NCBI GenBank assembly: GCA_947259295.1
Contig: CAMYMG010000036.1
Coordinates: 1-64,000, forward strand
Reading direction: 5' to 3'
Length of the DNA stretch: 64,000 nucleotides
Source of the DNA: an uncultured Rhizobiaceae bacterium
GTDB lineage: Bacteria > Pseudomonadota > Alphaproteobacteria > Rhizobiales > Rhizobiaceae
A program made the translations under genes and the position numbers. A model generated the notes under the pieces. That model was given only the letters and a program-made list of their open reading frames with translations, made no database searches and was not told the origin of the DNA. This document shows positions 32,994 to 57,417 of this stretch, piece by piece (the stretch's first letter is position 1; every line of letters begins with the position of its first letter).

Positions 32994-33068
32994 CTAATCA
33001 TTCGAACTCTAACTACTAGTGCATCCCTTTGCAAGTTGACAATCGAATATGGAGGCTCCTGCCCGAGC

Positions 33069-34844
33069 ATGTGCGGAATTTGCGGCGAAGTAACATTTGA
33101 CGGGTCGGCCCCGTCGGTCCTGGCGATATCCAGAATGTCCGAAACACTGGCGCCGCGAGGTCCCGACGATTCGGGTATCGTGTCCTATGGCAATGCCGGA
33201 TTCGGCCATCGCCGCCTGCGCATCATCGACCTGTCCGAGAAAGCCCGGCAGCCGATGGTCGACGGCATGCTCGGCCTGACCATCGCCTTCAACGGCTGCA
33301 TCTACAATTACCCCCAGCTGCGCCGCGACCTCGAGGCACAGGGCTACAGCTTCTTCTCCAACGGCGACACCGAGGTAATCCTGAAGGCCTGGCATGCCTG
33401 GGGCGAAGCCTGCGTCGAGCGCTTCAACGGCATGTTCGCCTTCGTCATCCAGGAGCGCGACAGCGGACGCATCATCATGGCGCGCGACCGTTTCGGCATC
33501 AAGCCGCTCTATCTGTCGCAGTCGGGCGACCGTCTGCGCTTCGCCTCGTCGCTCCCGGCCCTGCTCAACGCCGGCGACATCGACACGTCGATCGACCGCG
33601 TCGCGTTGCACCACTACATGAGCTTCCACGCCGTCGTGCCGCCCCCGCGCACCATCATCAACGGTGTCAAAAAGCTGCCGCCGGCGACGATGCGCATCAT
33701 CGCGGCGGATGGACAGTTCAAGGACCGCCGTTACTGGGATCCGCCCTTCGGCCGCGCCGCCGACGAGAGCACCCTGTCGGCCACCGACTGGCGCGATCGC
33801 CTGCTTGAGGAACTTCGCGCCGCCGTCAAGCGCCGCATGGTGGCCGACGTTCCGGTCGGCGTGCTGCTTTCGGGCGGCGTCGATTCTTCTCTTATCGTCG
33901 GCCTGCTCGCCGAGGCCGGCCAGACCGGCCTGATGAGCTTTTCCGTCGGCTTCGAGGAAGCCAATGGGGAAAAGGGCGACGAATTCGTCTATTCCGATCT
34001 GATCGCCAAGGAATTCGGCACCGACCACCACAAAATCTTCGTGCCCTCCGAGGGGCTGATGGACGCCCTGCCCGGCACGTTCCAGGCGATGTCGGAGCCG
34101 ATGGTCTCCTACGACAATGTCGGCTTCTACCTGCTGTCCAAGGAAGTCTCCAAGCACATCAAGGTCGTGCAGTCCGGCCAGGGCGCCGACGAGGTATTCG
34201 GCGGCTACCACTGGTACCCGCCGCTCGCCGCAAGCAACGATGTCGTCGGGGACTACGCCAAGGTGTTCTTTGACCGCAACCATGAGACGCTGCGGCGCCA
34301 GCTCGGCGCCGACTGGACGGACGACCGCGACTACAGCCGCGAACTCGTCGCCGCCGAACTCCAGCGCCCCGGCGCCGATACGCCTGTCGATCGCGCGCTC
34401 CGTCTCGATTCGACCGTCATGCTGGTCGACGATCCGGTCAAGCGCGTCGACAACATGACGATGGCCTGGGGACTTGAGGCGCGCGTGCCGTTCCTCGACC
34501 ACGAGCTGGTCGAACTCGCCGCCCGCATCCCGCCCGAACTGAAGCTCAAGGACAACGGCAAGGGCATTCTTAAGGACGTCGCACGCATGGTCATCCCGAG
34601 CGAGGTGATCGACCGCAAGAAGGGCTATTTCCCCGTTCCGCAGCTTAAATATGTCGACGGCCCCTATCTCGACATGGTGCGCGATGCGTTGCAGTCTCGT
34701 ACGGCGCGCGAGCGCGGCCTGTTCCGGGACGACTATCTCAACGATCTGTTCGAGGCGCCCTCGGAGCACATCACCCCGCTGCAGGGGTCGGAACTCTGGC
34801 AGGTCGGCCTGCTCGAGATGTGGCTCCAGACACATGGGATCTAG
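33069..34844 (+). CDS. asnO: N-acetylglutaminylglutamine amidotransferase (AsnB-like)
   Basis: MCGICGEVTFDGSAP...RGPDDSGIVSYGNAGFGHRRLRIIDLS...LLSGGVDSSLIVGLLAE; followed by ngg and M42 genes. Confidence 0.92.
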   Translation: MCGICGEVTFDGSAPSVLAISRMSETLAPRGPDDSGIVSYGNAGFGHRRLRIIDLSEKARQPMVDGMLGLTIAFNGCIYNYPQLRRDLEAQGYSFFSNGDTEVILKAWHAWGEACVERFNGMFAFVIQERDSGRIIMARDRFGIKPLYLSQSGDRLRFASSLPALLNAGDIDTSIDRVALHHYMSFHAVVPPPRTIINGVKKLPPATMRIIAADGQFKDRRYWDPPFGRAADESTLSATDWRDRLLEELRAAVKRRMVADVPVGVLLSGGVDSSLIVGLLAEAGQTGLMSFSVGFEEANGEKGDEFVYSDLIAKEFGTDHHKIFVPSEGLMDALPGTFQAMSEPMVSYDNVGFYLLSKEVSKHIKVVQSGQGADEVFGGYHWYPPLAASNDVVGDYAKVFFDRNHETLRRQLGADWTDDRDYSRELVAAELQRPGADTPVDRALRLDSTVMLVDDPVKRVDNMTMAWGLEARVPFLDHELVELAARIPPELKLKDNGKGILKDVARMVIPSEVIDRKKGYFPVPQLKYVDGPYLDMVRDALQSRTARERGLFRDDYLNDLFEAPSEHITPLQGSELWQVGLLEMWLQTHGI

Positions 34845-34848
34845 CACC

Positions 34849-36657
34849 ATGGCCAAGGCCGACGGAAACAAGAAGAAATCAGGTGTGCCGCGCGGCGAAC
34901 GCTCGCGTGACCATCGCCTGCAGCGGCTGCGCGTACATTCGCTGCAGGACCAGCCAGGTGGCGGCGAGCGCGCCGCGGCACGCTCGGAACCGGTCATCCT
35001 CGACTGCGGCTGGGGCCGCCTGCTCTTCGCGCCCACCTTCGGCTCCGACGCCGAACTGGTAGACGCCCTGCGCCAGGAGCGGCCCGACCAGCGCGACATC
35101 ATCTTCTATGTCCGCGATCCGCACGTCGTGCTGACCCAGGCGCCGCAGGAAACCTTCCTCGACCCCTCGCACACCTACCGGCTCGACCTCTCGACCTATC
35201 GCGCCGGGCGCAAGCAGCCGAAGGGCTATTTCATCCGCAGGCTGACGTCCGAGGCCGACGCCGTCGCCGTCAACACCATTTATGCCGCGCGCGGCATGGT
35301 GCCGGTGATGCCGGAATTCTTCTGGACCAACCGGGACAGTCGCGCGCTTACCTATTTTGTCGCCGAGGAAGAGGCCACCGGCGACATCGTCGGCACCGTA
35401 ACCGGTGTCGACCACAGCCGCCTCTTCCAGGATCCCGCTCGCGGCTCGTCGCTGTGGTGCCTGGCGGTAGACCCGCAGTCGCGGCACCCGGGCATTGGCG
35501 AGATGCTGGTCCGGCGGCTGGCTGAATACTTCCAGGCGCGCGGCGCAAGCTATCTCGACCTTTCGGTGCTGCATGACAACGAACCGGCGATCGGGCTCTA
35601 CGAGAGCCTCGGCTTCCGGCGCATTCCGCTGTTTGCCGTCAAGCGCAAGAACCCTATCAACGAGAAGCTGTTTTCCGGGCAGATCGAGCACTACGACGAC
35701 CTCAACCCCTATGCACGCATCATCATCGACGAGGCGGCGCGGCGCGGCGTTCATGCCCAGGTCACCGACGCCGGCGGCGGCTTCTTCCGTCTGTCCTATG
35801 GCGGACGTTCCATTCATTGCCGCGAAAGCCTGTCGGAACTGACCTCGGGCGTGGCGGTTTCGATCTGCGACGACAAGGCCGTCACCCGGCGGATCGTCGC
35901 CGCGGCCGGTGTCGCCGTTCCCGAGCAGATCCTGGCGGACGATGGCGCCGCGATCGAACGACTGGTCGCCGAACACGGCAGCGTCGTCGTAAAGCCGGCG
36001 CGCGGCGAACAGGGCCGCGGCGTTTCGGTCGGTCTGACCGACAAGGGCGACATCGAGCGCGCCGTCGCGGAAGCCGGCGAGATCTGCGACCGCGTGCTGG
36101 TCGAAAGCTGCTTCGAGGGCCAGGATCTGCGCCTCGTGGTCATCGACCACAAGCTCGTCGCCGCTGCCGTCAGGCGCCCTCCCTCGGTTGTCGGCGACGG
36201 CCAGAAGTCGCTCGCCACGCTGATCGAGCGCCAGTCGCGCCGCCGCGCCGCCGCTACCGACGGCGAAAGCCGCATTCCGGTCGACGAGGAAACACTGCGC
36301 TGCCTGGCCGCCGGCGGCCGCAGCCTCGACACGGTTCCCGCCGAAGGCGAAGAGGTGCTGGTGCGCAAGACCGCGAACCTGCACACAGGCGGCTCCATCC
36401 ACGACGTCACCGGCATCGTTCACCCGAAGCTCGTCGAAGCGGCCAAGCTGGCGGCACGCGCCATCGACATTCCGGTGGTCGGCATCGACTTCATGATCAA
36501 GTCTCCGACCCAGCCGGACTACGTTTTCATCGAGGCCAACGAGCGGCCGGGGCTTGCCAACCACGAGCCGCAGCCGACCGCCGAGCGCTTCATCGACCTT
36601 TTGTTTCCCCAGTCGCGGGTGCGGCTGGCAAAGCCGGCTTCGGGGGCCGCTGCATGA
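34849..36657 (+). CDS. ngg: N-acetylglutaminylglutamine synthetase (GNAT + ATP-grasp)
   Basis: GNAT part LWCLAVDPQSRHPGIGEMLVRRLAEYFQARGASYLDLSVLHDNEPAIGLYESLGF fused to ATP-grasp VVVKPARGEQGRGVSVGL. Confidence 0.92.
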   Translation: MAKADGNKKKSGVPRGERSRDHRLQRLRVHSLQDQPGGGERAAARSEPVILDCGWGRLLFAPTFGSDAELVDALRQERPDQRDIIFYVRDPHVVLTQAPQETFLDPSHTYRLDLSTYRAGRKQPKGYFIRRLTSEADAVAVNTIYAARGMVPVMPEFFWTNRDSRALTYFVAEEEATGDIVGTVTGVDHSRLFQDPARGSSLWCLAVDPQSRHPGIGEMLVRRLAEYFQARGASYLDLSVLHDNEPAIGLYESLGFRRIPLFAVKRKNPINEKLFSGQIEHYDDLNPYARIIIDEAARRGVHAQVTDAGGGFFRLSYGGRSIHCRESLSELTSGVAVSICDDKAVTRRIVAAAGVAVPEQILADDGAAIERLVAEHGSVVVKPARGEQGRGVSVGLTDKGDIERAVAEAGEICDRVLVESCFEGQDLRLVVIDHKLVAAAVRRPPSVVGDGQKSLATLIERQSRRRAAATDGESRIPVDEETLRCLAAGGRSLDTVPAEGEEVLVRKTANLHTGGSIHDVTGIVHPKLVEAAKLAARAIDIPVVGIDFMIKSPTQPDYVFIEANERPGLANHEPQPTAERFIDLLFPQSRVRLAKPASGAAA

Positions 36658-37754
36658 CATCTATGGAAATCGACACCGAATACCTGCTTCAGAAACTGCA
36701 ACATCTACTGGCCATCGACAGCCCAACGGGGCTCACCGACAATGTCGCGCGCTATTGCAGCCGCGAGCTCGAACTACTCGGCCTCAAGCCGGAGTTGACC
36801 CGGCGCGGCGCCATCCGCGCCGTCAGCCAGGGTGGCAAGCGGCATGGCGCGCGCGCCATCGTCTCGCATCTCGACACGCTCGGCGCACAGGTGAAGAACA
36901 TCAAGCCCAACGGCCGCCTCGAACTGGTACCCATCGGCAACTGGTCGGCGCGCTTCGCAGAGGGCGCCAGGGTCAATGTCTACGCCAGTCCGATGGTGTT
37001 TCGCGGCACCATCCTGCCCCTCAAGGCATCGGGCCATACCTTCAACGACGAGATCGACACGCAGCCGACGGGCTGGCCCTATGTCGAGCTGCGGCTCGAC
37101 GTGGTGACGACGACCGCCGCAGAAACCGAGGTGCATGGCATCGAGATCGGTGACATCGTCGCCATCGACCCGCGCCCGGAGTTTTTGGAGAACGGCTTCA
37201 TCAACTCGCGCTTTCTCGACGACAAGGCCGGCGTTGCCATCATGCTGGCCACGATCCAGGCCTTCGAGCGCGCCGAGTGCAAGTCGCCCGTAGACATCCA
37301 CTGGCTCTTCACCATCGCCGAGGAAGTCGGCGTCGGGGCTTCCTCGGTGATTGCGCCCGAAATCGCATCGCTGGTTGCCGTCGACAACGGCACCTCGGCG
37401 CCGGGTCAGAACTCGGCCGAATTCGGCGTCACCATCGCCATGGCCGACCAGTCGGGACCGTTCGACTATCATTTGACGAAGCAGCTGGAGACGCTCTGCC
37501 AGAAGAACGCCATCGCCTACCAGAAGGACATCTTCCGCTACTACAGGAGCGATTCCGCTTCGGCGCTGGAAGCCGGCCACGACATCAGGACCGCGCTCGT
37601 AACCTTCGGCGTCGACGCCTCGCACGGCTACGAGCGCATTCATCTCGATGCGCTGCAGTCGATCGGCGAACTGCTGCTCCACTACGTGACCAGCCCGATC
37701 GTCATCGCGCGCGACGTCGAGGACTTCGTCGAGGTGCAGGACTTCACCAAGTAG
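36654..37754 (+). CDS. M42-type peptidase of the NAGGN osmoprotectant system
   Basis: LLAIDSPTGLTDNVARYC...LDDKAGVAIMLATIQAF...FTIAEEVGVGASSVI; ATGA overlap with ngg. Confidence 0.88.
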   Translation: MTSMEIDTEYLLQKLQHLLAIDSPTGLTDNVARYCSRELELLGLKPELTRRGAIRAVSQGGKRHGARAIVSHLDTLGAQVKNIKPNGRLELVPIGNWSARFAEGARVNVYASPMVFRGTILPLKASGHTFNDEIDTQPTGWPYVELRLDVVTTTAAETEVHGIEIGDIVAIDPRPEFLENGFINSRFLDDKAGVAIMLATIQAFERAECKSPVDIHWLFTIAEEVGVGASSVIAPEIASLVAVDNGTSAPGQNSAEFGVTIAMADQSGPFDYHLTKQLETLCQKNAIAYQKDIFRYYRSDSASALEAGHDIRTALVTFGVDASHGYERIHLDALQSIGELLLHYVTSPIVIARDVEDFVEVQDFTK

Positions 37755-37774: not shown

Positions 37775-39334
37775 CTAGCGTTGTCGCGCAGCCCAGGTCT
37801 CGGCTACTGCCACGACCGCAGCATTGATCGGCCCGGATGGCAGCGACGGGAACACCGACGCATCAACGACGAACAGATTGTGGAAGCCTTTTACCCTGAG
37901 CTCCGGATCGACGACCGCCTCGGCGTCCATGCCCATCCGGCAGGTGCCGGCAGGATGGTGATGCGTCGATGCGGCGCGGGCGATGAAGGCGTCGATTTCG
38001 CCATCCGATTGCACCTCGGGCCCGGGCTGCACCTCCACGTCGCGCCAGTCGTCGAGCGCGGGATGATGACCGACCGTTCGCGCCGCCCGCAGCGCCTTGC
38101 GAAAGGTCAGCCGGTCCAGTTCCGTCTCGAGGTAGTGTGGATCAATGGTCGGCTGGTCGCCCCTGCCCGGCCCGCTTGGCCGGATGTTGCCGCGGCTGGT
38201 CGGATGCGTGACGCCGCACAGCAGCGTATATGTCTGCCCGTAGGCCGGCGCCTCCAGCCCTTCCGCCGCCGACGGCGCGACGACGCAGGCGAGCACGATG
38301 TCCGGCTGTCCGGAGGTGCGGGAGAAGTCGGCGCTGTCGAGATACATCAGCGATTCGGAATGCTGCAGCCGCGACGGCGGCACCGGTCGCTTTGACCTAT
38401 AGACATTGCCAAGTGCCAGCAGGTGATCTTGCAGATTCCTGCCCACGCTCTTCCTGTCGCTGACGCAGGCGATGCCGGCCTCGCGCAGCACCTGCGGATC
38501 GCCAATCCCGGAGCGCATCAGGATCAGCGGCGAGGACACCGCTCCGGCCGAAAACACGATGCGGCCGGCCGAAATCCGTTCGGTCGAACCGCCGGCGACG
38601 CAGATTGCTGCCACCGCGCGGTGGCCGTCGAGTTCCAGATGCTCGATCTCGTGGCCGGTGAGCAGCGTGAGGTTGGGTCGTGCCAGCACCTCGGGCGTCA
38701 GATAGGCATCCGCGACGCTGACACGCCGGCCGCCACGGATGGTCAGGCAATTCGGCGATGTTCCGACGAGTTCGCCGCTGTTGTGGTCCGGCAGTGGTGG
38801 AACGCCGAGCGCCGTGCCCGCCGCCATATAGGCGCGCACCACCGGACTGACTTCGTCGTCGGGCAGAAAGACGTCAAGCGGCCCGTCGCCCTCGTGGCCG
38901 TTGAGACCTGCACGTTGGCCGGTCAGGCGCTCGCTGCGGTCGAACCCGTCACGCAGCCCATCGAATGACCAGCCCTCGCCGGCGGCCTCTGCCCAGGCGT
39001 CGAAGTCGCGCGGATGGCCTCTCACATGTGCCATGGCGTGCAGGCAGCTCGAGCCGCCGACGATTCGTCCGCGCGGCCACTCGTGCACGCGGCGCGCTGT
39101 GTACTGCTGTGGCACGGTGCGATAGGCCCAGTCGTAGACGCGGCCCTGAAGCGCCGGCCATTTCAGCGGATCGCCGATATCCGGATCCGTAGGCATGCCG
39201 CCTGCCTCGACGACCCCGACGAGGCAGGCGGCATCCTCGCTCAGCCGGCTTGCCAGCACGCTGCCGGCAGACCCGGCGCCGACGATCAAGACGTCGAAGT
39301 GCTGACTCACCTGCCGGCCGTGCCCGGCCGTAAC
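37775..39334 (-). CDS. GMC oxidoreductase, probable pyridoxine 4-oxidase
   Basis: [22 protein letters not shown]...WPALQGRVYDWAYRT...GGSSCLHAMAHVRGHPRDF...VPPSRLQHSESLMYLD...GVTHPTSRGNIR, close to recalled M. loti pyridoxine 4-oxidase motifs; start uncertain (GTG 39334 or 39310). Confidence 0.8.
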   Translation of the reverse strand, partial: VTAGHGRQVSQHFDVLIVGAGSAGSVLASRLSEDAACLVGVVEAGGMPTDPDIGDPLKWPALQGRVYDWAYRTVPQQYTARRVHEWPRGRIVGGSSCLHAMAHVRGHPRDFDAWAEAAGEGWSFDGLRDGFDRSERLTGQRAGLNGHEGDGPLDVFLPDDEVSPVVRAYMAAGTALGVPPLPDHNSGELVGTSPNCLTIRGGRRVSVADAYLTPEVLARPNLTLLTGHEIEHLELDGHRAVAAICVAGGSTERISAGRIVFSAGAVSSPLILMRSGIGDPQVLREAGIACVSDRKSVGRNLQDHLLALGNVYRSKRPVPPSRLQHSESLMYLDSADFSRTSGQPDIVLACVVAPSAAEGLEAPAYGQTYTLLCGVTHPTSRGNIRPSGPGRGDQPTIDPHYLETELDRLTFRKALRAARTVGHHPALDDWRDVEVQPGPEVQSDGEIDAFIARAASTHHHPAGTCRMGMDAEAVVDPELRVKGFHNLFVVDASVFPSLPSGPINAAVVAVAETWAARQR

Positions 39335-39359
39335 GGTCTCCTCGCGCTGGCGGTAGCGC

Positions 39360-40037
39360 TCATGCGGCGAAGGCGCCGGCGTTCGACCGTTCGATGATCT
39401 GTTTCTGGACTGCAAGAAGATGGGCGCGCATGGCTGCCTCGGCAGCCTCGGGATCGCGCTGTGAAATCGCCTCGGCGACCAGCCGATGCTCGGCATCGCG
39501 CTGCGCGATGCGCTTCGGACAGGTGGGGGACGCAGTACGGGCCACCTTGACCCGCGCATCAATGCCAACCTGGCGCAGCATGCGGTAGATCTCGGCGGCC
39601 AGATGATTGCGTGCCGCCGCTGCTATCGCCAGGTGGAAGGCAAAGTCGACCTCTCCCGAAGGCGCGTTTTCTGGCGTGGTCGCCGCCTCCAGGATCCGCG
39701 CCGTCTCGAAGGACGAGGCGCGCAGCGAAGCCAGCCGCGCCAGGCCCGGCTCGATCAGCAGCCGCAGTTCCAGCACCTCGATCGGATTGGTTACCCGCAC
39801 TAGTTCTTCGCCATAGCGCGGCCATGCGGTCGGCGCGCGCCGGGTACGCACCGGCTTCAGGTCCCCTGCCCGGCGCATCGCCTCGAGCGCCTTGCGCAGC
39901 TGGTGCCGCTTGACGCCGAGCTGGTCGGCGAGATCGCGCTCCGACGGCAAGGCGCCGCCCGCCTCCTGGAGCTTGCGGATGGCGGCGATGATGTCCTCGA
40001 CATCCGACAGGACGAGTTTCGGTTCGAATGCAGCCAA
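39360..40037 (-). CDS. GntR/FadR-type (FCD) transcriptional regulator
   Basis: [37 protein letters not shown] wHTH plus FCD-like C-terminus; divergent from GMC gene. Confidence 0.88.
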
Positions 40038-40171: not shown

Positions 40172-40228
40172 GACGACATTCTTTGTCCGTCGGCCTTTCT
40201 GCAGCGGACCTTCACCAAAGGGAACCCG

Positions 40229-41866
40229 ATGGCAACTGGCGAAACCTTCGACTACGTCATCGTCGGTGCGGGCTCGGCCGGCTGCGTCCTGGCCAACCGA
40301 TTGAGCGAGGACCCCGGCGTCCGGGTGCTGCTGCTGGAGGCGGGCGACTGGGATCGCGACCCGATGATCCACATCCCGCTTGGCTGGGGCAAGATCCTCA
40401 CCGAGCGTCGTCACGACTGGATGTATTTCTGCGAGCCCGAAGCCAATGTCGGCGGCCGCAAGGTAGAGTGCGCACGCGGCAAGGTGATCGGCGGTTCGTC
40501 GTCGACCAATGCCATGGCCTATGTGCGCGGCAATCGCGGCGACTACGACCGCTGGGCCGCATCCGGACTGAAGGAATGGTCCTACGAGAAGGTCCTCCCC
40601 TACTTCAAGAAACAGGAAAGCTGGGAAAAGGGCGAAAGCCGATATCGGGGCGGGAACGGACCGCTGAGCACGCAGTTCTGCCGCTACAAGGACGACCTGA
40701 TCGAGGCCTTTGCCGAGGCAAGCCTGACCGCGGGTTATCCGCAGACCGACGACTACAACGGGGCCGTCCAGGAAGGTTTCGGCCGGCTGCAGATGACGAT
40801 CGCCAAGGGGCGCCGCTCCTCGGCGGCGACCGCCTATCTGCGTCCGGCGCTCCGGCGTAGCAATTTGAAGGTGGTCACCGGCGCCATGGCCACCCGCATC
40901 CTGCTCGCCGAAGGCAGGGCTTCGGGCATTGCCTACCGCCGCGGCGGCGTCGAGGTCGAGGCCCTCGCGCGCCGCGAAGTGGTGTTGTCGGGCGGCGTCA
41001 TCAACACCCCGCAACTCCTTATGCTTTCAGGGATTGGCGACCCCGAGGAATTGTCCGAGAATGGCATCGGTACGACGATCCCGCTGCCCGCCGTCGGCAA
41101 GAATCTCCAGGACCACGTATCGGTCATCCTGATGTACCGTCGCAAGACGCCCGGCCCGTTTCACCGCATGATGCGGGCGGACAGGATCGGCCTCGACTTC
41201 GCCAAGACCTACCTCACCGGGACCGGTTTTTCCGGCGACGTGCCGGGCGGCGTCGTCGCTTTCCTGAAAAGCGACAAGTCGCGCCCCCTGCCCGACGTGC
41301 AACTCCTCTTCACCGCGGCGCCCTTGGCTGCATGGCCTTACCTTCCGCCCTTCAAGGCTCCCTTCGCCGATGGCTTCGCCACCCGCGTCGTCGCGGTGCA
41401 GCCGGAGAGCCGCGGCCGCGTCGCGCTGGCCTCCGCCGATCCGCTGGCGGCCCCCCTCATCCACCAGAACTTCCTCTCCGCCGAGCGCGACTGGCAGTCG
41501 CTGCGCGCCGGCGTCAGGATCGCCCGCGACCTTGCCGCGCAGCCGTCGATGGCGCCCTTCGTGCAGGCCGAGTTCTTTCCCGGCCCGCAATGCGAGAGCG
41601 ATGCCGAAATCGACGAGCACATCCGCAAGACCTCTATCACCGTGCATCACCCCGCCGGCACCTGCCGCATGGGTACCGACGACGCATCCGTCGTCGATCC
41701 GCAGCTGCGGGTGCGTGGTGTCGGCGGCTTGCGCATCGTCGATGCTTCGGTGATGCCCGACCTGCCCTGCGGCAACATCAATGGCGCCGTCATCATGATC
41801 GCCGAGAAGGCCGCCGACCTTATCCGCGAGCAGGCCGAACTCGAACTCGACAGCGCCGCCGTCTGA
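40229..41866 (+). CDS. GMC oxidoreductase, candidate 4-pyridoxate dehydrogenase
   Basis: [47 protein letters not shown]...[13 protein letters not shown]; function inferred from cluster context. Confidence 0.65.
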
Positions 41867-42147: not shown

Positions 42148-43299
42148 ATGTCCGTCGCGCAAGCAGCAAACGATGTCATCAGCAACAAGAAGGCGGCCCT
42201 CAAGGGGCTATACGACGATCTCTACGGCAAGAACATGTTTCCCTTCTGGGCAACGTCCGAAGGCGTCGATCATGACGAGATCAAGCAACTCATGGCGACC
42301 AACAAGGCTGTGCCCTTCGTCTGGTCCTATTCCGACATCGAGCCGTTGCTGCAGCGCGCCGCCCAGTTGGTTACGATGGACGACAGCGAGCGCCGCTCGC
42401 TGATCCTCGTCAATCCGGGCCTGGCGCCCAAGCGCGCCTCCGTCAGCACCATGTACACGGCCTACCGGCTGAACGATCCCGACGAGATCATGCCGCCGCA
42501 CAAGCATTCCCCGAGCGCCATTCGCTTCGGCCTGACCGGTGAAGGCAATTTCACCGGCGTCGAGGGCGAGGATGTCGTCTTCGGTCCCGGCGACATGGTG
42601 CTCACCCCCAACGACGCCTGGCACAACCACGGCACGGTCGGCGGCGAGCAGGCGGTCAACTTGTCGGTCCTCGACCTGCCGCTGGTCGAGACGCTGCATG
42701 CCGTTCACTTCGACCACAAATACACCGAGATGGTCGACGGAAAGGAAGTCGAGAAGAAGGTGCAGACCGCCCGCTTCCCGAGCGACTACTCGCAGCGCAT
42801 CTACGGCGAAGGCGGCATGATGCCCCGCTTCGTCGATCACAAGCGCGGCGGCGGCCTGTCCTCCCCCATGTATGTCTACCGCTGGGAGAAGATGGAAGCG
42901 CTGCTCGACGCCCACAAGGACTGGGACGGCGACCCGCATGAGGGTATCGTCATCGACTATGTCGATCCGACGACCGGCGGACCGGTGTTCCACACCATCA
43001 ACTTCTACGTTCAGATGCTGCGCCCGGGCGAAAAGACCCTGCCGCAGCGCGAGACCGCGAGCCTGCTTCTGGCGCCCTTCCGCGGCAGCGGCCATTCGAT
43101 CATCGACGGCAAGCGCTACGACTGGAACCAGTTCGACACGATCGCCATACCGGGCGGCTCCTGGGTCGAGCATGTCAACGGCTCGTCCACCGAGCCGGTT
43201 ATCTTCTTCGGTGCCACCGACGCGCCGACCCAGAAGGCGCTGCTGCTCTACAAGCGCTGGGGCCGCAACCAGGCCGGCGACCTGCTGCGGATCGCCTGA
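42148..43299 (+). CDS. Bicupin dioxygenase, gentisate/salicylate 1,2-dioxygenase-like
   Basis: PPHKHSPSAIRFGLTGEGNFTGVEGEDVVFGPGDMVLTPNDAWHNHGT metal-binding cupin motif of the gentisate dioxygenase family. Confidence 0.82.
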   Translation: MSVAQAANDVISNKKAALKGLYDDLYGKNMFPFWATSEGVDHDEIKQLMATNKAVPFVWSYSDIEPLLQRAAQLVTMDDSERRSLILVNPGLAPKRASVSTMYTAYRLNDPDEIMPPHKHSPSAIRFGLTGEGNFTGVEGEDVVFGPGDMVLTPNDAWHNHGTVGGEQAVNLSVLDLPLVETLHAVHFDHKYTEMVDGKEVEKKVQTARFPSDYSQRIYGEGGMMPRFVDHKRGGGLSSPMYVYRWEKMEALLDAHKDWDGDPHEGIVIDYVDPTTGGPVFHTINFYVQMLRPGEKTLPQRETASLLLAPFRGSGHSIIDGKRYDWNQFDTIAIPGGSWVEHVNGSSTEPVIFFGATDAPTQKALLLYKRWGRNQAGDLLRIA

Positions 43300-43359: not shown

Positions 43360-44487
43360 TTGGTTTCAGCGTTCAACACGAAGCAGATCGGCCACGTGGA
43401 CTGCCCCGGCGGCGGCCAGGTCTGGATCGACGGCAACATCCTCTATATCGGCCACATGCGGCCGCCGAGCGGCACGACGGTGGTCGACATATCCGACCCC
43501 CGCAACCCGAAGAAGATCGCCACCATCGACGTCCCGCCGGGCTGGCACTCGCACAAGGTGCGCGCCCAGGACGGCCTGATGATCATCAACCACGAGCGCT
43601 TCGGCAGCGAGGGCCCGCCCGATTTCGGCGGCGGCCTGGCGATTTACGACACCTCGCGACCGGCCGAGCCGAAGCTGATCTCCAAGTGGATGACCGGCGG
43701 CAAGGGCGTCCACCGCTACGATTATGACGGCCGCTACGCCTACATCTCGCCGACCGCCGACGGCTATGTCGGCAACATCGTCATGATCCTCGACCTGATC
43801 GACCCGGCCAACCCGGTCGAAGTGGGCCGCTGGTGGATACCCGGCCAGCACACCGGCGGCGGCGAGGAATATCCCTGGCACGACTATGTCACGCCGCGCT
43901 GCCACCATCCGCTGCGCATGGGCGACCGGCTATATGTCAGCTACTGGCACCACGGCCTGTTCATCCTCAACATTTCCGACATGTCGAAGCCGCACGCCAT
44001 CGCGCATGTCAATTCGAGCCCGAGCTTTCCGCACCCGACGCACACCTGCCTGCCGATCCCGCAGGATCTCAAGGGCCGCCGCATCATGGTGGTCGCCGAC
44101 GAGGACGTCGCCAAGCTGCGCCCCTCGGCGCCAGCCTTCAGCTGGATCTACGACATCACCGACGAGACCAACCCGCTGCCGATCTCGACCTTCCAGGTTC
44201 CCGGCATCGATCTCGACGGAGCGCCGCAGCCGCCCATGACTGGCTGCCACCAGCCGTCCGAGCGCTTCAAGGGCTCGATCATCCCCTTCGCCTGGTTCGC
44301 GCAGGGCCTGCGCCTCGTCGACATCGCCGATCCCTTCGCGCCGAAGGAAGTCGGGCATTACGTGCCTGATGCCCCGGCCGGCGCCGAGCGGTCATCGTCC
44401 AACGACGTCACCATCGACGATCGCGGCATCGTCTACCTGATCGACCGCGTGCGCGGCGTCGACATTATCGAAACCAGTGTTCTGTAG
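43360..44487 (+). CDS. LVIVD-repeat beta-propeller protein
   Basis: Repeated TVVDISDPRNPKKIATI, LAIYDTSRPAEPKLISKW, LDLIDPANPVEVGRW, LNISDMSKPHAIAH, LVDIADPFAPKEVGHY; TTG start. Confidence 0.82.
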   Translation: MVSAFNTKQIGHVDCPGGGQVWIDGNILYIGHMRPPSGTTVVDISDPRNPKKIATIDVPPGWHSHKVRAQDGLMIINHERFGSEGPPDFGGGLAIYDTSRPAEPKLISKWMTGGKGVHRYDYDGRYAYISPTADGYVGNIVMILDLIDPANPVEVGRWWIPGQHTGGGEEYPWHDYVTPRCHHPLRMGDRLYVSYWHHGLFILNISDMSKPHAIAHVNSSPSFPHPTHTCLPIPQDLKGRRIMVVADEDVAKLRPSAPAFSWIYDITDETNPLPISTFQVPGIDLDGAPQPPMTGCHQPSERFKGSIIPFAWFAQGLRLVDIADPFAPKEVGHYVPDAPAGAERSSSNDVTIDDRGIVYLIDRVRGVDIIETSVL

Positions 44488-44496: not shown

Positions 44497-44904
44497 TTGA
44501 GCGACAGCACGCGGAAATCAGCCACCCACTACGCCATCGGCAACAAGAACCCCAACCTGCCCTTTCACCCTGCGGTGCGGGCCGGCGACTTCATCTTCGT
44601 CTCCGGCCAGGTGCCCAAGGACGAGAACAACAACATGATCAGCGGCACCATCGAGGAAGAGACGCTGGCCACGCTGAAGACCATCGAGCGCGTCATCGCG
44701 CACGAGGGCGCGACACTCTCGGACGTGGTCCGCATCACCACGTACCTGGAGGACACGCGCGATTTCGGACGCTACAACCGGGCCTTCCTCGAAGGCATCG
44801 GCGACGCCGTCCTGGCGCGCACCACTGTCGAGGCAAAGGCCGTCATCAACACCAAGATCGAGATGGACGCCATCGTCTACAAGCCGCTGCCGGCAGCCGA
44901 ATAG
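44497..44904 (+). CDS. RidA/YjgF-family protein
   Basis: AVRAGDFIFVSGQVPKDENNNMISGTIEEETLATLKTIERVIAHEGATLSDVVRITTYLED...RTTVEAKAV; TTG start. Confidence 0.9.
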   Translation: MSDSTRKSATHYAIGNKNPNLPFHPAVRAGDFIFVSGQVPKDENNNMISGTIEEETLATLKTIERVIAHEGATLSDVVRITTYLEDTRDFGRYNRAFLEGIGDAVLARTTVEAKAVINTKIEMDAIVYKPLPAAE

Positions 44905-44932: not shown

Positions 44933-45553
44933 ATGTACAAACTGTTGGGACGCCAGACATCGGGCAACGTCCAGAAGGTTCTCTTCATGCTCGAAGAGAT
45001 CGGCGCCAATTACGAGCGCGAGGACTACGGCCGCCTGTTCGAGAACACACAGACGGCCGAGTACAAGGCGCTGAACCCGACTTCGAAAGTGCCGACGCTG
45101 ATCGATGGCGATACCGTCATCTGGGAGTCGAACACCATCCTGCGCTATCTCTCGGCCTCCAACGGCAACGCGCTGAACGGCGCGACGCCGGCCGAGAAGA
45201 CCGAGATCGAGCGCTGGATGGATTTCCTGCTCGCAGCAGTCAATCCCGGCTACATGACCGCCTTCAAGGGCGCCAAGCTAACGCCCGAGGAGCAGACGCC
45301 CGAGTACAAGGATGGCGTCAAGGATCTCGCCGCGCAGCTGCAGATCATCGATACCCATCTCGCGGGCAAGGATTATCTGGCGCTCGGCAAGCTGACCATC
45401 GCCGACATTGCCTGCGCGCCGATCCTCAAGCGGTGCGTCGACTTCAAGATCGGCCGTCCGGCCATGCCGAACCTCGAGCGTTGGGTCGCTGCGATGGCCA
45501 AGCGTCCGGCTTTCCAGGCAGCGACCGCTCCGGCGGCGACCAAGGCCGCCTGA
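44933..45553 (+). CDS. Glutathione S-transferase family protein
   Basis: MYKLLGRQTSGNVQKVLFMLEEIGANYE...NPTSKVPTLIDGDTVIWESNTILRYLS. Confidence 0.9.
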   Translation: MYKLLGRQTSGNVQKVLFMLEEIGANYEREDYGRLFENTQTAEYKALNPTSKVPTLIDGDTVIWESNTILRYLSASNGNALNGATPAEKTEIERWMDFLLAAVNPGYMTAFKGAKLTPEEQTPEYKDGVKDLAAQLQIIDTHLAGKDYLALGKLTIADIACAPILKRCVDFKIGRPAMPNLERWVAAMAKRPAFQAATAPAATKAA

Positions 45554-46482
45554 TGATCGAGCGGGTCGCCCTCATCGGCCTCGGGACGATGGGTCCCGGC
45601 ATCGCGGCGCGCCTCGCGCGCGGCGGGCTCGACGTGGCGGCCTACGACATCCAACCCGCAGCGATCGAGAAGGCCGGCGCGATGCTCGCCATCGCCGGCG
45701 GCGTGCTCGACCGGCTGGGCATCGAGGCGCCTTCGGATGGCACCGGCAGCGTGCGTTTTGCCGAGTCGCTGGCCGATGCGGTCGACGGTGCGGACCTCGT
45801 CATCGAGAACGTGCCCGAAAACATCGACATGAAGGCCGAGACGTACCGCGCCATCGACAGGCTGGTCGGCGCATCGGTGATCGTGGCCTCGGACACCTCG
45901 GGCATTCCGATCACCAAATTGCAGGCGCATATCTCGCATCCCGAACGCATGGTCGGCATGCACTGGTCGAACCCGCCGCACATCGTGCCGATGATCGAGG
46001 TGATCGCCGGCGAGCAGACAGCGCCCGAAACGGTCGCCACGATCCGCGACCTGATCCGCTCGATCGGCCTGCTGCCGGTGGTGGTCAAGAAGGACGTGCC
46101 GGGATTCGTCGAGAACCGCGTCCTCTACGCTCTGCTGCGCGAAGCCGTCGACCTCGTCGAGAGCGGCGTCATCGAGCCGAAGGATCTCGACACCTGCGTC
46201 TCCTGGGGCATCGGCTACAAGATCGCCGTCATCGGCCCGATGGCGCTGCTCGATATGGCCGGCCTCGATATCTACAAGTCCGTCTCCTCCTTCCTCAATG
46301 CCGACCTCGCCAACCGCGCCGACGTCGCGCCGATGGTCGAGGAGATGACCGCAGCCTCGCGCCTCGGCATCAAGTCGGGCGGCGGCATCTATTCGTACAC
46401 GCCCGAGGAAGCCGGTGCCCTGCAGGCGGAGCGCGCCCGCAAGCTCGTCGCCATCCGCCGCATTCTCGAAGACCGGGAGTGA
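45553..46482 (+). CDS. 3-hydroxyacyl-CoA dehydrogenase-fold protein, probable 5-formyl-3-hydroxy-2-methylpyridine-4-carboxylate dehydrogenase
   Basis: VALIGLGTMGPGIAARLARGGL...SDTSGIPITKLQAHISHPERMVGMHWSNPPHIVPMIEVIAGE...VKKDVPGFVENRVLYALLREAVDLVE, very close to the recalled M. loti FHMPC dehydrogenase. Confidence 0.78.
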   Translation: MIERVALIGLGTMGPGIAARLARGGLDVAAYDIQPAAIEKAGAMLAIAGGVLDRLGIEAPSDGTGSVRFAESLADAVDGADLVIENVPENIDMKAETYRAIDRLVGASVIVASDTSGIPITKLQAHISHPERMVGMHWSNPPHIVPMIEVIAGEQTAPETVATIRDLIRSIGLLPVVVKKDVPGFVENRVLYALLREAVDLVESGVIEPKDLDTCVSWGIGYKIAVIGPMALLDMAGLDIYKSVSSFLNADLANRADVAPMVEEMTAASRLGIKSGGGIYSYTPEEAGALQAERARKLVAIRRILEDRE

Positions 46483-46485: not shown

Positions 46486-47040
46486 ATGCACGGTTCGGCT
46501 GAGCAGGTTCGGAACCGGGGCGATTTGATGCAAGGCCTGCTCGCCGCAGCGAATGCCGTCGCCGGCGCCGTTCACTGGGTGCTCGGCCTCGCCATGCTGA
46601 CCATCGTCGCGATCAACATTGTCAATGCCACGGGCCGCTATTTGCTCGGCTTCTCGATGACCGGCGCCGACGAGCTGATGGTCTACACCATGGTCTGGGT
46701 GGTGATGGCCGGCGCCGTCCTGTCGCTCGCCTCGCGCGACCATATCGGCGTCAATCTCGTTCCCTCCTACGCCACCGGCCGCACGCTGCACCTGCTGCAC
46801 GCGGTCCACGATCTTGCCGCTTTCTTCTCCTGCGCCCTGGCGACCTATGCCTCCTGGGGCTTCGTCACCCGCATCGCCGCCATCGGCCCGCGCAGCATGG
46901 GCCTCGGCCTGCCTATGGTCATCCCGCACGCCGCCCTCCTCGCCGGCTTCGCCGCGCTGACGCTGACCGCGCTGGCCCTGCTGCTGCGCGACGCCGATGC
47001 CTGGTCGCGCAGCGCGCCCTCGCCGGAGACTGGCCGATGA
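46486..47040 (+). CDS. TRAP transporter small permease (DctQ-like)
   Basis: Four-TM DctQ-like protein ahead of DctM. Confidence 0.88.
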   Translation: MHGSAEQVRNRGDLMQGLLAAANAVAGAVHWVLGLAMLTIVAINIVNATGRYLLGFSMTGADELMVYTMVWVVMAGAVLSLASRDHIGVNLVPSYATGRTLHLLHAVHDLAAFFSCALATYASWGFVTRIAAIGPRSMGLGLPMVIPHAALLAGFAALTLTALALLLRDADAWSRSAPSPETGR

Positions 47041-48308
47041 GCGCCGTGCTGACCGCCCTGCCCGCCGGGCTGCTCGTCCTCGGCACGCCGATATTCGTGG
47101 TGTTCCTGGCCGGTGTCGCTTGCGCCATCTTCTTCGTTCTGCCGACGCCGCCCATCGCGCTGCACCAGGTGCTGTTCGGCGGCCTCGACAACTATGCCCT
47201 GTTGGCCATCCCCTTCTTCATCTTCGCAGGCGAACTGATGGGTACGAGCGGCATCGCCGCGCGCCTAATCGCCTGGGTCCTGGCGCTGGTCGGCCGGGTG
47301 CCCGGCAGCCTCGGCGTCGCCACGGTCGGCGCCTCGACAATCATGGGCGCCATCTCGGGCTCCAGCGTGGCGGCGGTAGCAGCCCTCAGCAAGACGCTCT
47401 ATCCCGACCTCGAGCGCTCGGGCTACGGCAAGGCACGCTCGGCCGGCCTGCTCGCGTCCAGCGGCGCCATCGACATCGTCGTGCCGCCGAGCATCGCCAT
47501 GATCCTCTACGGGCTCGCCGCCGAGCAATCGATCCCACGGCTGTTCATGGCCGGCGTCCTCCCCGGCCTGCTGATCGCCCTGATGATGTGCGCCTTCGTC
47601 GTCGCCGTCGCGATCGTCCTGCGCATTCCGGTCGTCGGCCGTTTCGACGCCGCCGTCGCCTGGCGCGCCACCAGGCACGCCGCCGCCGCGCTGCTGATGC
47701 CCGTCTTCGTGCTCGGCGGCATCTACCAGGGCTGGTTCTCGCCGACCGAAGCCGGTGGCTTCGCCTGCCTCTATGCCATCGTCGTCGCCCGCTTCGTCTA
47801 TCGCACCATGGGCTGGGCCGACATTGTCCGCGCCGCCGGCAATGCCGCGATGCTGTCGGCCCGCATCCTGATCATCGTCGCGGTAGCCGGCGTCGTCACC
47901 TGGCTACTGACCACGCAGGGCGTGCCGCAGGCGGTGGTCGCCTGGATCGAGGCGCTGCAGCTCGACGCCTTCGCCTTCCTGCTCTCGGTCAACATCCTGC
48001 TTCTGGTCGTCGGCTGCTTCCTCGATCCGACCTCAGCCATCCTGGTGCTGGCGCCGCTGCTCGTTCCCCTCGCCGTGTCGGTCGGCGTCGATCCGATTCA
48101 TTTCGGCATCGTCATGACCGTCAATCTGGCGATCGGCATGTTTACGCCGCCCTTCGGCCTCAACCTCTTCGTCGTCCAGTCGGCGACGGGCCTGCCCGCG
48201 CACACGATCTACAGGGGCGTCCTGCCCTTCGTCGGCGTGCAGATCGCGGCCCTCATCATCATCACCTATGTGCCGGCGTTGTCGCTGGCGCTGGGGCAAT
48301 CGCTCTAA
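47037..48308 (+). CDS. TRAP transporter large permease (DctM-like)
   Basis: FFIFAGELMGTSGIAARL...GASTIMGAISGSSVAAVAAL...FLDPTSAILVLAPLL. Confidence 0.93.
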   Translation: MSAVLTALPAGLLVLGTPIFVVFLAGVACAIFFVLPTPPIALHQVLFGGLDNYALLAIPFFIFAGELMGTSGIAARLIAWVLALVGRVPGSLGVATVGASTIMGAISGSSVAAVAALSKTLYPDLERSGYGKARSAGLLASSGAIDIVVPPSIAMILYGLAAEQSIPRLFMAGVLPGLLIALMMCAFVVAVAIVLRIPVVGRFDAAVAWRATRHAAAALLMPVFVLGGIYQGWFSPTEAGGFACLYAIVVARFVYRTMGWADIVRAAGNAAMLSARILIIVAVAGVVTWLLTTQGVPQAVVAWIEALQLDAFAFLLSVNILLLVVGCFLDPTSAILVLAPLLVPLAVSVGVDPIHFGIVMTVNLAIGMFTPPFGLNLFVVQSATGLPAHTIYRGVLPFVGVQIAALIIITYVPALSLALGQSL

Positions 48309-48323
48309 GGAAAAGGGAACACG

Positions 48324-49337
48324 ATGATTTCAAGCATCCTCAAGGCCGCCGCAGTCTCCACCGCCCTTGCGCTGCTGCCGATGTCGGTCCTGCCGGCGGC
48401 TGCGCAGTCGACGATGAAGCTCGCCTCGGCGACCATCAACGACGTCCAGCACGAGTGGCAGAAGGTCTTTGCGGAGGAACTGAAGAACCGGGTCGGCGAC
48501 GCGGTGACGACCGAGATCTACCCGGCCAGCCAGCTCGGCGCCATTCCGCGCATGGCCGAAGGCGTGCTTCTCGGCACCATCGAGGCCTTCACCACGCCGA
48601 CCTCCTTCATGACCAATGTCGATCCGCGCTTCCAGGCATTCGACGTGCCGGGCCTCTTCAAGTCGCCTGAGGACGTCGACAACGCCATCCACGATCCCGA
48701 ATACCGCGGCCACATGGAGGAGATGTTCCTCGACAAGGGCCTGCGCATCATCGGCGCGATCTACAACAGCCCGACGGTCGTCTTCACCATGAAACCGGTG
48801 ACCACGCTCGATGGGCTGAAGGGCATGAAGATCCGCACCTTCGCCTCACCGATGCAGGTCAAGCCGATGGAACTGGTCGGCGCGACACCGCTGCCGCTCG
48901 CCCTCACCGAGGTTGTGCCGGCACTGGAATCGGGCGGCCTCGACGGCATGCTCGTAGGCATGCCGATCCTCACCGCGTTCAAGTACTACGACGTCGGCAA
49001 GAACATCACCGACCTGCGCTTCGCCGAGATCGTCTCGGTGACGGTCGTCAACGAGATGTGGTTCCAGTCGCAGACCGAAGAGGTCAGGAAGGCGATTGTC
49101 GAGGCCGGTCGCGCTGCCGAACAGGCGGTATTCCCCTGGGGCGTCGAGAATGTCGCCAAGACCTACAAGATCTGGACCGACAATGGCGGCGTCATCAACA
49201 CGCTGTCGGACGCCGATCAACAGAAGATGGACAGCGAGTTCCAGACGCTCGCTGCAGAACTGGTCGACGCCGATCCGGCGGTCAAGGAAGAATATGAGCG
49301 CCTGAAGGCGCTTGTCGAGGAGAAGGCGAAGAAGTGA
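48324..49337 (+). CDS. TRAP transporter substrate-binding protein (DctP-like)
   Basis: Signal peptide; QHEWQKVFAEELKNRVGDAVTTEIYPASQLGAIPRMAEGVLLGTIEAF. Confidence 0.93.
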   Translation: MISSILKAAAVSTALALLPMSVLPAAAQSTMKLASATINDVQHEWQKVFAEELKNRVGDAVTTEIYPASQLGAIPRMAEGVLLGTIEAFTTPTSFMTNVDPRFQAFDVPGLFKSPEDVDNAIHDPEYRGHMEEMFLDKGLRIIGAIYNSPTVVFTMKPVTTLDGLKGMKIRTFASPMQVKPMELVGATPLPLALTEVVPALESGGLDGMLVGMPILTAFKYYDVGKNITDLRFAEIVSVTVVNEMWFQSQTEEVRKAIVEAGRAAEQAVFPWGVENVAKTYKIWTDNGGVINTLSDADQQKMDSEFQTLAAELVDADPAVKEEYERLKALVEEKAKK

Positions 49338-49800: not shown

Positions 49801-49869
49801 ATATACCTCGCGGAATGCGCAATAATAAAAAGAAGAATAAATCAATCGAGAAACAATGGAGAGGCTTCT

Positions 49870-50898
49870 ATGTTGAAACATCTTAAAAGCAGCGTCAGTG
49901 CCGTGCTGCTCGGCACCTTCGTCCTGGGTAGCGCCTATGCTGCCGAGGTCAAGTCCATCGCCATCCTGACGCCGGAAGAAGGAACCGACTACGGCTGGAA
50001 CCAGCAGGGGGTCGATGCTGCCAAGGCGGCGGCAGAGGCGGCCGGCGTCGAGGTCATCGTCGCCCAGGGTCTCGGCTACGGCGACGTTCGCCCGACGCTG
50101 CGCGAACTGGCCGGTGATGGCGCCAGCCTGATGATCGCCCACGCCTCCGGCTACAACACCGCGGCACCGGAAATCGCCAAGGAAATGAATGTCCCGGTGG
50201 CCATCGTCGATACGCCTGCCGGTCTCGAGAAGGGCCTCGTTGCTGACTATACGCTGAGCGGCCATGAAGGCGCCTATCTCGCCGGTCGTCTGGCCGCCAA
50301 GATGTCGCGTTCGAAGCAGGTCGGCATCGTCGTCTCCGGCGAGCCGCCCTCGTGGAACTCGCAGTCGGCCGCTTTCGCCCAGGGCGTCAAGGCCGAGAAC
50401 CCGGACGTCAAGGTGTCCTATGCCGTTATCGGACCCGCCGCCTACAGCGACGCGGCCGGCGGCAAGCGCGTCACCGAAAGCCTCATCGCTTCCGGCGCCG
50501 ACATCATCTTCGGCCAGGGCAACGGCTCGAGCTTCGGCATGCTGCAGGCGGTCGAGACGACCAAGGCCGGCGACGGCGGCAAGGTCTATTTCATCGACGT
50601 GATCGGCGACAAGACGCCGATCGACAAGGGCTTCCTGCTCTCGTCGGTGGTGTGGAACATCACCCCCGTCTACACGGCGATGATCGAGGATCTGAAGAAC
50701 GACAGCTTCGGCTCGAAGGGCTACGCGATCGGCCTCAAGGACGATTCGGTCAAGCTGCTCAAGACCGACGCCATCCCCGAGGACACCTGGAACGAGATTC
50801 AGGCGCTGCGCGAAGACATCATCTCCGGCAAGATCAAGGTCGAGCCGGTCTATGATGCCGCCGAAGTGCGGGCGCTGATGACCAACGTCAGCGAATAG
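49870..50898 (+). CDS. BMP-family (BmpA/PnrA-like) ABC transporter substrate-binding protein
   Basis: VKSIAILTPEEGTDYGWNQQGVDAAKAAAEAAGVEVIVAQGL...DIIFGQGNGSSFGMLQAV. Confidence 0.88.
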   Translation: MLKHLKSSVSAVLLGTFVLGSAYAAEVKSIAILTPEEGTDYGWNQQGVDAAKAAAEAAGVEVIVAQGLGYGDVRPTLRELAGDGASLMIAHASGYNTAAPEIAKEMNVPVAIVDTPAGLEKGLVADYTLSGHEGAYLAGRLAAKMSRSKQVGIVVSGEPPSWNSQSAAFAQGVKAENPDVKVSYAVIGPAAYSDAAGGKRVTESLIASGADIIFGQGNGSSFGMLQAVETTKAGDGGKVYFIDVIGDKTPIDKGFLLSSVVWNITPVYTAMIEDLKNDSFGSKGYAIGLKDDSVKLLKTDAIPEDTWNEIQALREDIISGKIKVEPVYDAAEVRALMTNVSE

Positions 50899-50907
50899 TC
50901 GATCATG

Positions 50908-50941
50908 GCGAGCCGGCGCGACTAACGCGGCGCCGGCTCGC
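50908..50941 (+). promoter_or_regulatory. Intra-operon hairpin after the SBP gene
   Basis: GCGAGCCGGCGC-N10-GCGCCGGCTCGC, 12-bp perfect stem. Confidence 0.65.
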
Positions 50942-50966
50942 ATCCTTTCGCTTGCCTGGAATTTTT

Positions 50967-53629: not shown

Positions 53630-53632
53630 TCG

Positions 53633-54568
53633 ATGACCGGCCTGTTCAGCGAAGTCTTCCTCGGCGCGCTTCTCTTCGGCGCGGTCACGGCGGCGATCCC
53701 GCTCTTGCTTGCCGGTCTCGGCGAGCAGATGTCGGAGAAGGCCGGCGTTCTCAACATCGGCATCGAGGGCATGATGATTTGCGGCGCCTATTGTGGTTTC
53801 GTCGGCGCCTTCTACTCCGGCTCGCTCTGGTTCGGCTTCCTGACCGGCGCGCTCGGCGGCATGGCCGTGGCGCTCGTCATGGCCCTGCTCTGCGTGCGGC
53901 TCGGGCTCAACCAGATCGTCATCGGCATCGCGCTGACGCTCGGCCTCGAGGGGCTGACGGCGCTGCTGCACCACTTCCAGTTTTCGCGCAGCTATCCGCG
54001 CCTGCCCGCCGCCGATGCGACAGTCATTCCCGTGCTGTCGGAAATCCCCGTTCTCGGTCCCGCGCTGTTCCAGCATCACCTGCTCGTCTACATCGCGGTG
54101 GCGCTGGTCGTCGTGATGAGCATCATCTACCGGCGCACCCAGCTCGGGCTGAACCTTCAGGCGGCGGGCGACAAGCCGGCGGCGCTCGATGTCGCCGGCG
54201 TCGATGTCGTGCGCACCCGCACCGTCGCGGTACTGACCACCGGTGGCATGGCCGGGCTCGGCGGCGCCTATCTCGCCAATGTCGGCGCCGGCCTCTTCAT
54301 TCCTTTCATCACCAACGGAGCCGGATTTCTCGGCATCGTGCTCGCCATGCTGGCGCGCGGCCGGCCGGTCTGGGTGCTGTTCGGCGCGCTGCTCTTCGGC
54401 ATCTGCCTGTCGCTGACGACGGCCATGCAGGTGGCCGGCATCAACATACCGACCGACGTCATCCAGATGCTGCCATTCCTGGCAGTGATGATCATGCTGG
54501 TCCTGTTCGGCAGGCGCGCCAGCCTGCCGGCGGCACTCGGCATTCCCTACGAGCGCGGAGCGCGCTGA
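53633..54568 (+). CDS. ABC transporter permease (BMP-type system)
   Basis: Multi-TM; GEQMSEKAGVLNIGIEGMMICGAYCGFVGAF. Confidence 0.93.
   Translation: MTGLFSEVFLGALLFGAVTAAIPLLLAGLGEQMSEKAGVLNIGIEGMMICGAYCGFVGAFYSGSLWFGFLTGALGGMAVALVMALLCVRLGLNQIVIGIALTLGLEGLTALLHHFQFSRSYPRLPAADATVIPVLSEIPVLGPALFQHHLLVYIAVALVVVMSIIYRRTQLGLNLQAAGDKPAALDVAGVDVVRTRTVAVLTTGGMAGLGGAYLANVGAGLFIPFITNGAGFLGIVLAMLARGRPVWVLFGALLFGICLSLTTAMQVAGINIPTDVIQMLPFLAVMIMLVLFGRRASLPAALGIPYERGAR

Positions 54569-55426
<858 letters not shown>

Positions 55427-56628: not shown

Positions 56629-57417
<789 letters not shown>

Follow-up and report, generated by a model that had tools for sequence, protein, structure and literature searches.

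To date, two routes have been identified for the bacterial degradation of vitamin B6, and the one described in M. loti relies on a decarboxylation and a flavin oxygenase (PMC3538738). The M. loti proteins concerned are the decarboxylase of HMPDC (3-hydroxy-2-methylpyridine-4,5-dicarboxylate), the flavin oxygenase MHPCO and the AAMS hydrolase (PDB entries 2z7b, 3alj and 3kxp, respectively), which act in this order. Rings bearing a hydroxyl next to a carboxylate can also be opened by bicupins, as by the salicylate 1,2-dioxygenase (SDO) of Pseudaminobacter salicylatoxidans (2phd, 3njz and 3nl1), which cleaves monohydroxylated ortho-hydroxycarboxylates (PMC11264262). In this enzyme, Arg83, Arg127 and His162 hold the substrate carboxylate and aid the oxygen chemistry (PMC11264262, PMC10306065), and Asp174 and Trp104 touch the 5-OH of gentisate (PMC10306065); Gln108, Trp172 and Asp174 are stated to be conserved in all known gentisate dioxygenases (PMC11264262). 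No paper linking a cupin dioxygenase to vitamin B6 catabolism was met in the literature searched, which is only weak evidence of absence as key subscription papers lay outside its scope.

The locus considered here lies in a stretch of 64,000 nucleotides from an uncultured Rhizobiaceae bacterium, hereafter called the window. It carries a bicupin gene that is part of an operon for vitamin B6 catabolism and encodes an intact three-histidine site. Genomic and sequence evidence, from which activity, metal and product are inferred, makes it likely that this bicupin cleaves the ring of HMPDC as a mononuclear Fe(II) dioxygenase and, by a well-supported inference, that it stands in for the HMPDC decarboxylase and MHPCO in opening the ring. 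The genes of the cluster are as follows.

37775-39412, minus strand: GMC1, pyridoxine 4-oxidase (582.5 bits to 4ha6, 'Pyridoxine 4-oxidase'; N- and C-terminal GMC_oxred domains).
39360-40037, minus strand: GntR/FCD regulator, divergent from the operon (Pfam GntR and FCD; kept beside the operon in relatives).
40217-41866, plus strand: GMC2, predicted 4-pyridoxate dehydrogenase making FHMPC, 5-formyl-3-hydroxy-2-methylpyridine-4-carboxylate (GMC domains; a syntenic gene, about 80% identical, adjoins the FHMPC dehydrogenase gene in textbook-type clusters), which we take to be the counterpart of the known M. loti 4-pyridoxate dehydrogenase.
42148-43299, plus strand: bicupin, predicted HMPDC ring-cleaving dioxygenase (homology, operon, replacement pattern, residues).
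43360-44487, plus strand: LVIVD-repeat beta-propeller, predicted metal-dependent hydrolase acting on the ring-cleavage product (LVIVD repeat; fold match; invariant His/Asp/Glu).
44497-44904, plus strand: RidA-family protein, predicted imine/enamine deaminase (Ribonuc_L-PSP, E 1.8e-22; conserved ARTT...IEM region).
44933-45553, plus strand: GST-like protein, predicted isomerase (GST_N and GST_C; weak maiA similarity, 44 bits).
45553-46482, plus strand: FHMPC 5-dehydrogenase, making HMPDC (NF042925 equivalog, 556 bits for a cut-off of 500).
46486-49337, plus strand: TRAP transporter with small and large subunits and a DctP-type binding protein (binding protein by TRAP_S1, the other two subunits by ORF position and sequence).
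49860-54568, plus strand: BMP-type ABC transporter (ORFs and conserved synteny; assigned by reading the sequences rather than by profile).
54620-55426, plus strand: 4-pyridoxolactonase (NF047925 equivalog, 475 bits for a cut-off of 325).
55444-56628, plus strand: pyridoxamine-pyruvate aminotransferase, PPAT (765.5 bits to 2z9u, labelled aspartate aminotransferase in the PDB, which we take to be PPAT).
56674-57417, plus strand: pyridoxal 4-dehydrogenase of the SDR type (NF047923 equivalog, 420 bits for a cut-off of 325).

As read from its genes, the cluster encodes vitamin B6 catabolism in full as far as HMPDC, with synteny as the only basis for the 4-pyridoxate dehydrogenase step. Compared with the M. 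loti-type pathway, the upper enzymes leading to HMPDC are all present with this same reservation (pyridoxine 4-oxidase, PPAT, pyridoxal dehydrogenase, lactonase and FHMPC dehydrogenase), whereas MHPCO and HMPDC decarboxylase are lacking in the window genome. The bicupin, LVIVD, RidA, GST and FHMPC dehydrogenase genes follow each other with gaps of 60, 9, 28 and -1 bases, so that the dehydrogenase stands four genes downstream of the bicupin; the same 20 kb also holds the genes for pyridoxine 4-oxidase, PPAT, the lactonase and the pyridoxal dehydrogenase. A domain scan detected no other oxygenase family in the bicupin cassette. The initial annotation had also noted that no fumarylpyruvate hydrolase of the FAH family is present, and this held among the window genes scanned, the profile scan being broad but not exhaustive. 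On either side of the cluster, asparagine-synthase-like, acetyltransferase/ATP-grasp and M42 peptidase genes lie in a row at 33036-37754 (the first and third supported by domains), an arrangement which we take to resemble an N-acetylglutaminylglutamine amide osmolyte cluster, and the ectoine utilisation genes doeB, doeA and eutC, each above its equivalog cut-off, occupy 59970-63256.

The bicupin reading frame (42148-43299, plus strand, 383 amino acids) is open throughout; a GTG at 42139, upstream, is also possible as start, but 29 orthologues all share the Met1 encoded at 42148. The reading frame, the motif and the gentisate-family placement claimed by the initial annotation all held: the motif reads HKHSPSAIRFGLTGEGNFTGVEGEDVVFGPGDMVLTPNDAWHNHG in the translation, residues 19-369 match the gentisate 1,2-dioxygenase model TIGR02272 (208.7 bits, E 1e-61), and the closest solved structures are the gentisate dioxygenases 3bu7 (E 1.5e-51, residues 18-366) and 2d40 (E 5e-47), followed by SDO 2phd (E 3e-33, about 118 bits). 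Since the homology covers both cupin halves and the family match is far above chance, the protein is a member of the gentisate/salicylate-type bicupin superfamily. Nevertheless, its 208.7 bits stay below the TIGR02272 equivalog cut-off of 442.1 bits, and the name gentisate dioxygenase should therefore not be given to it. The same holds for the 5-aminosalicylate 1,2-dioxygenase MabB, whose model NF049978 is matched with 199.5 bits for a cut-off of 650. MabB and the 5-nitrosalicylate dioxygenase (8ch4) belong to the same superfamily and share with the bicupin, as proposed, the ring cleavage of substituted salicylate-like compounds, but the latter enzyme is a monocupin without equivalents of Arg127 and His162. 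The structure model of the bicupin, built from an alignment of clade sequences only, reaches a mean pLDDT of just 52 and deserves little confidence; Foldseek with this model gives gentisate dioxygenases and SDO as top matches and oxalate decarboxylase among the weaker ones. The contig holds one more Cupin_2 match beyond the window (C36:98707-98898), which shows no relation to the bicupin at E 1e-3.

Alignment to SDO 2phd, by which the bicupin residues were matched and numbered, indicates that H118, H120 and H159 correspond to the iron ligands H119, H121 and H160 and are invariant in the clade, so that a three-His Fe(II) site is met at the sequence level. The contacts to the ortho-hydroxycarboxylate are kept as well (R82, R126 and H161 for Arg83, Arg127 and His162). 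In contrast, Gln108 is replaced by R107, Trp172 by N171, Asp174 by S173 and Gly106 by A105, these states being constant across the checked clade members down to 59% identity. The three residues conserved in gentisate dioxygenases are thereby replaced by R107, N171 and S173 in every clade member checked, whereas homologues outside the clade, whether from relatives or plasmids, retain Q, W and D with the sole exception of L097, which has a Ser at the Gln position. The position of SDO Trp104 is occupied by Tyr103, as in most gentisate dioxygenases. The bicupin thus differs from gentisate 1,2-dioxygenase, with which it shares the iron site, by the loss of Asp174, the holder of the 5-OH, and by the absence of an FAH partner in the genes scanned, and from SDO by the four exchanges and by its place in a vitamin B6 operon. 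When HMPDC is laid on salicylate, the 4-COOH would take the place of the C1-COOH, the 3-OH that of the C2-OH, the ring nitrogen that of C4 and the 5-COOH that of C6; there would be no 5-OH to bind and the second carboxylate would adjoin the first. The additional arginine is inferred to suit a dicarboxylate such as HMPDC, for whose 5-carboxylate it would be a natural partner, but this contact is an inference that the low-confidence bicupin model cannot show.

The bicupin clusters were compared with textbook-type clusters. In other Mesorhizobium, these contain pyridoxine 4-oxidase, the GntR regulator, AAMS hydrolase (509 bits to 3kxp), MHPCO (844 bits to 3alj), an AA_synth gene, HMPDC decarboxylase (460 bits to 2z7b), GMC2 and FHMPC dehydrogenase, the last two sharing about 80% identity with their window counterparts; the transporters and lactonase that come next are the same. 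Bicupin clusters lack the four textbook genes preceding GMC2 and have the bicupin, LVIVD, RidA and GST genes between GMC2 and FHMPC dehydrogenase. Within Mesorhizobium, a cluster that is otherwise the same carries one cassette or the other; the bicupin and the M. loti enzymes, which on the proposed reading perform the same ring-opening job, are unrelated proteins. FHMPC dehydrogenase is present in 71 genomes (70 found by search, plus G001, whose dehydrogenase lies in L029); a genome-wide search of these detected the bicupin in 34 and MHPCO in 37, none having both or neither. HMPDC decarboxylase was found in the same 37 MHPCO genomes and in none of the 34 bicupin genomes, and nine genomes without FHMPC dehydrogenase have neither the bicupin, nor MHPCO, nor the decarboxylase. 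MHPCO and HMPDC decarboxylase are hence absent from the window genome (86% complete) and from all other bicupin genomes tested, AAMS hydrolase having been left outside the genome-wide search. Among 348 genomes sampled from the order, 12 have FHMPC dehydrogenase, and 7 of these also carry the bicupin; none of the 336 others has it. Since the decarboxylase is absent from bicupin genomes, HMPDC with its 4-carboxylate intact is left as the substrate to be opened.

The exclusivity of the two cassettes gives a Fisher p of 5e-21, a value that overstates the evidence because the genomes are not independent, 57 of the 71 being Mesorhizobium (22 with the bicupin and 35 with MHPCO). Of the 15 genera searched, 11 have the bicupin and 3 have MHPCO; the bicupin route appears to have the wider distribution among bacterial genera.

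The operon itself is conserved well beyond the window. Scanning of species genomes yielded 46 named loci with a bicupin 69-99% identical to that of the window, from taxa including Mesorhizobium, Pseudaminobacter, Bauldia, Oricola, Aestuariivirga, Rhodobacterales and others. Among these is P. salicylatoxidans with a 92% identical orthologue (L047), which cannot be its SDO since the species carries both. Mesorhizobium loti DSM 2626 also has an orthologue (L033). The order GMC2, bicupin, LVIVD, RidA, GST and FHMPC dehydrogenase recurs in nearly all loci, the LVIVD gene accompanying the bicupin in 46 of 46, RidA in 45 and GST in 44. On one MAG contig (L067:1926-6962), GMC2, bicupin, LVIVD and FHMPC dehydrogenase are present with RidA and GST missing in between, and the distant genome G815 has a reduced operon (L103:8331-11599) in which bicupin, FHMPC dehydrogenase and LVIVD follow one another, while RidA, GST, the lactonase and a window-type transporter all went undetected in the surrounding 20 kb. 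The three genes kept by both loci, those of the bicupin, LVIVD and FHMPC dehydrogenase, appear to form the core, and the roles of RidA and GST are either not obligatory or filled elsewhere. In six loci (L057, L059, L062, L071, L094 and L096), about 3 kb of extra genes separate RidA from GST, including an ABC ATPase-like gene in L059 and L071. The transporter following FHMPC dehydrogenase, of the TRAP type in the window (46486-49337), is either TRAP or ABC when the same place is compared in L030, L087 and L091. Its type was rejected as a cassette marker, both kinds occurring with both cassettes; this independent variation provides an internal control against an artefact affecting the whole cluster.

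How the ring would be opened can only be inferred. The 3-OH and 4-carboxylate of HMPDC would chelate the iron, as the corresponding groups do in SDO, R107 would hold the 5-carboxylate, and O2 would enter the C3-C4 bond, in the manner of SDO at C1-C2; the presence/absence pattern is silent on which bond is cleaved. HMPDC (C8H7NO5) would thereby yield HOOC-C(CH3)=N-CH=C(COOH)-CO-COOH (C8H7NO7, calculated [M-H]- 228.015). More speculatively, RidA, GST and the LVIVD propeller would then hydrolyse or isomerise this imine/enamine product, and hydrolysis of the C=N and enamine carbons would release pyruvate, ammonia and a C5 oxo-acid (formyl-oxaloacetate). RidA would be apt for such a hydrolysis because its family includes imine deaminases, alongside which the 2-aminomuconate deaminase acting after 2-aminophenol ring cleavage is discussed (PMC4433059, PMC6742747). 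GST-type proteins are known to isomerise maleylpyruvate and maleylacetoacetate. As for the LVIVD protein, it is confidently modelled as a beta-propeller (pLDDT 86) whose best fold match is the phosphotriesterase 5hrm (E 9e-18, TM 0.70), only 5hrm and its sister entry 5ioj being matched by sequence in the PDB, and its invariant His, Asp and Glu residues suggest a role as metal hydrolase, as predicted from sequence and fold model. The processing roles of all three proteins are conceivable inferences, none of them having been shown.

Other explanations of the locus have to be weighed against this one. The bicupin could cleave an earlier intermediate, 4-pyridoxate or FHMPC, since both share the chelating 3-OH next to the 4-COOH and no GMC2 gene is seen near the operon in L100, L101 and L103. 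This is unlikely. Nearly every locus retains GMC2 and FHMPC dehydrogenase, neither of which would serve a purpose had the ring already been cleaved. Even the reduced operon of L103 has the HMPDC-forming dehydrogenase next to the bicupin, and the extra arginine suits a second carboxylate. The initial annotation had proposed a hydroxypyridine carboxylate as substrate. Its chemical argument, a 3-OH next to a 4-COOH, was right for HMPDC and 4-pyridoxate, while MHPC, also on its list, has no 4-carboxylate. This substrate class is supported by the FHMPC dehydrogenase partner, by the replacement across 71 genomes and by the retained and lost contacts, all of it genomic and sequence-based without enzyme activity data, and it can now be narrowed, the retention of GMC2 and FHMPC dehydrogenase making HMPDC likelier than 4-pyridoxate.

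It could also be argued that the bicupin replaces the decarboxylase only, by removing the 4-carboxylate of HMPDC, and that another protein of the cassette opens the ring. HMPDC decarboxylase is indeed one of the replaced genes, and decarboxylase bicupins exist, such as the oxalate decarboxylase found among the weaker fold matches. This reading is nevertheless very unlikely, as the bicupin groups with the gentisate/salicylate dioxygenases and keeps the iron ligands, arginines and histidine known from SDO, and as the cassette holds no other oxygenase family. Just as improbable is a scheme in which an unrelated decarboxylase and hydroxylase encoded elsewhere produce a gentisate-like dihydroxypyridine that the bicupin then cleaves. 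Such is the classical route to gentisate-type substrates, and distant flavin monooxygenases are present in several bicupin genomes; against it, the conserved operon contains no such decarboxylase or hydroxylase, and Asp174 and Trp172, which belong to the gentisate pocket of SDO, are lost. Finally, that an ordinary gentisate or salicylate dioxygenase lies here by chance finds support in family membership alone and is all but excluded by the score far under the 442-bit cut-off, the clade-specific substrate residues, the occurrence of the bicupin only together with FHMPC dehydrogenase in the genomes sampled and the lack of an FAH gene among those scanned.

With the cleavage of HMPDC retained as the preferred reading, the locus likely represents a new branch of a known pathway, in which an established enzyme superfamily probably acts on a substrate new to it; this third vitamin B6 degradation route appears to be undescribed, as far as the limited literature search reached. 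If true, a different class of ring-opening enzyme, of the gentisate/salicylate type, would act on a pyridine ring, one oxygen-driven step would replace the two textbook steps of decarboxylase and flavin oxygenase, roles would be suggested for four unassigned protein families, and many bacteria seemingly devoid of the last steps, as they lack MHPCO, may be complete vitamin B6 degraders. Mesorhizobium strains with either cassette offer a natural comparison, and the prediction needs one enzyme and one substrate.

Regarding the direction of the exchange, quick midpoint-rooted trees were built. In the FHMPC dehydrogenase tree, MHPCO-type sequences fall in two places inside the bicupin-type ones, which needs two cassette changes, whereas they form one branch in the GMC2 tree. 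Beyond the order, the five class-level genomes are without exception of the bicupin type. Together with the tree placement, this points to the textbook module as the derived one, a tentative view given the trees used. A bolder reading, to which we give a narrow preference, would be that a cupin cleaves the intact HMPDC ring between C3 and C4 without decarboxylation or flavin hydroxylation, with the RidA, GST and propeller trio acting on the imine, in a third route more widespread and possibly older than the textbook one, the MHPCO cassette having later been swapped into Mesorhizobium.

Besides the chromosomal loci named above, a plasmid collection gave 211 records with bicupin homologues, all below 60% identity. 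The best of them were rejected as vitamin B6 clusters, their neighbours being a dienelactone hydrolase (L097), an FAH protein (L098) and a flavin monooxygenase (L099). The bicupin of the first, from a Paraburkholderia plasmid (L097:9001-10044, 39% identical), has an Ala at the position of SDO Gly106 in addition to the Ser at that of Gln108 and, with its adjoining dienelactone hydrolase, may act on yet another substrate.
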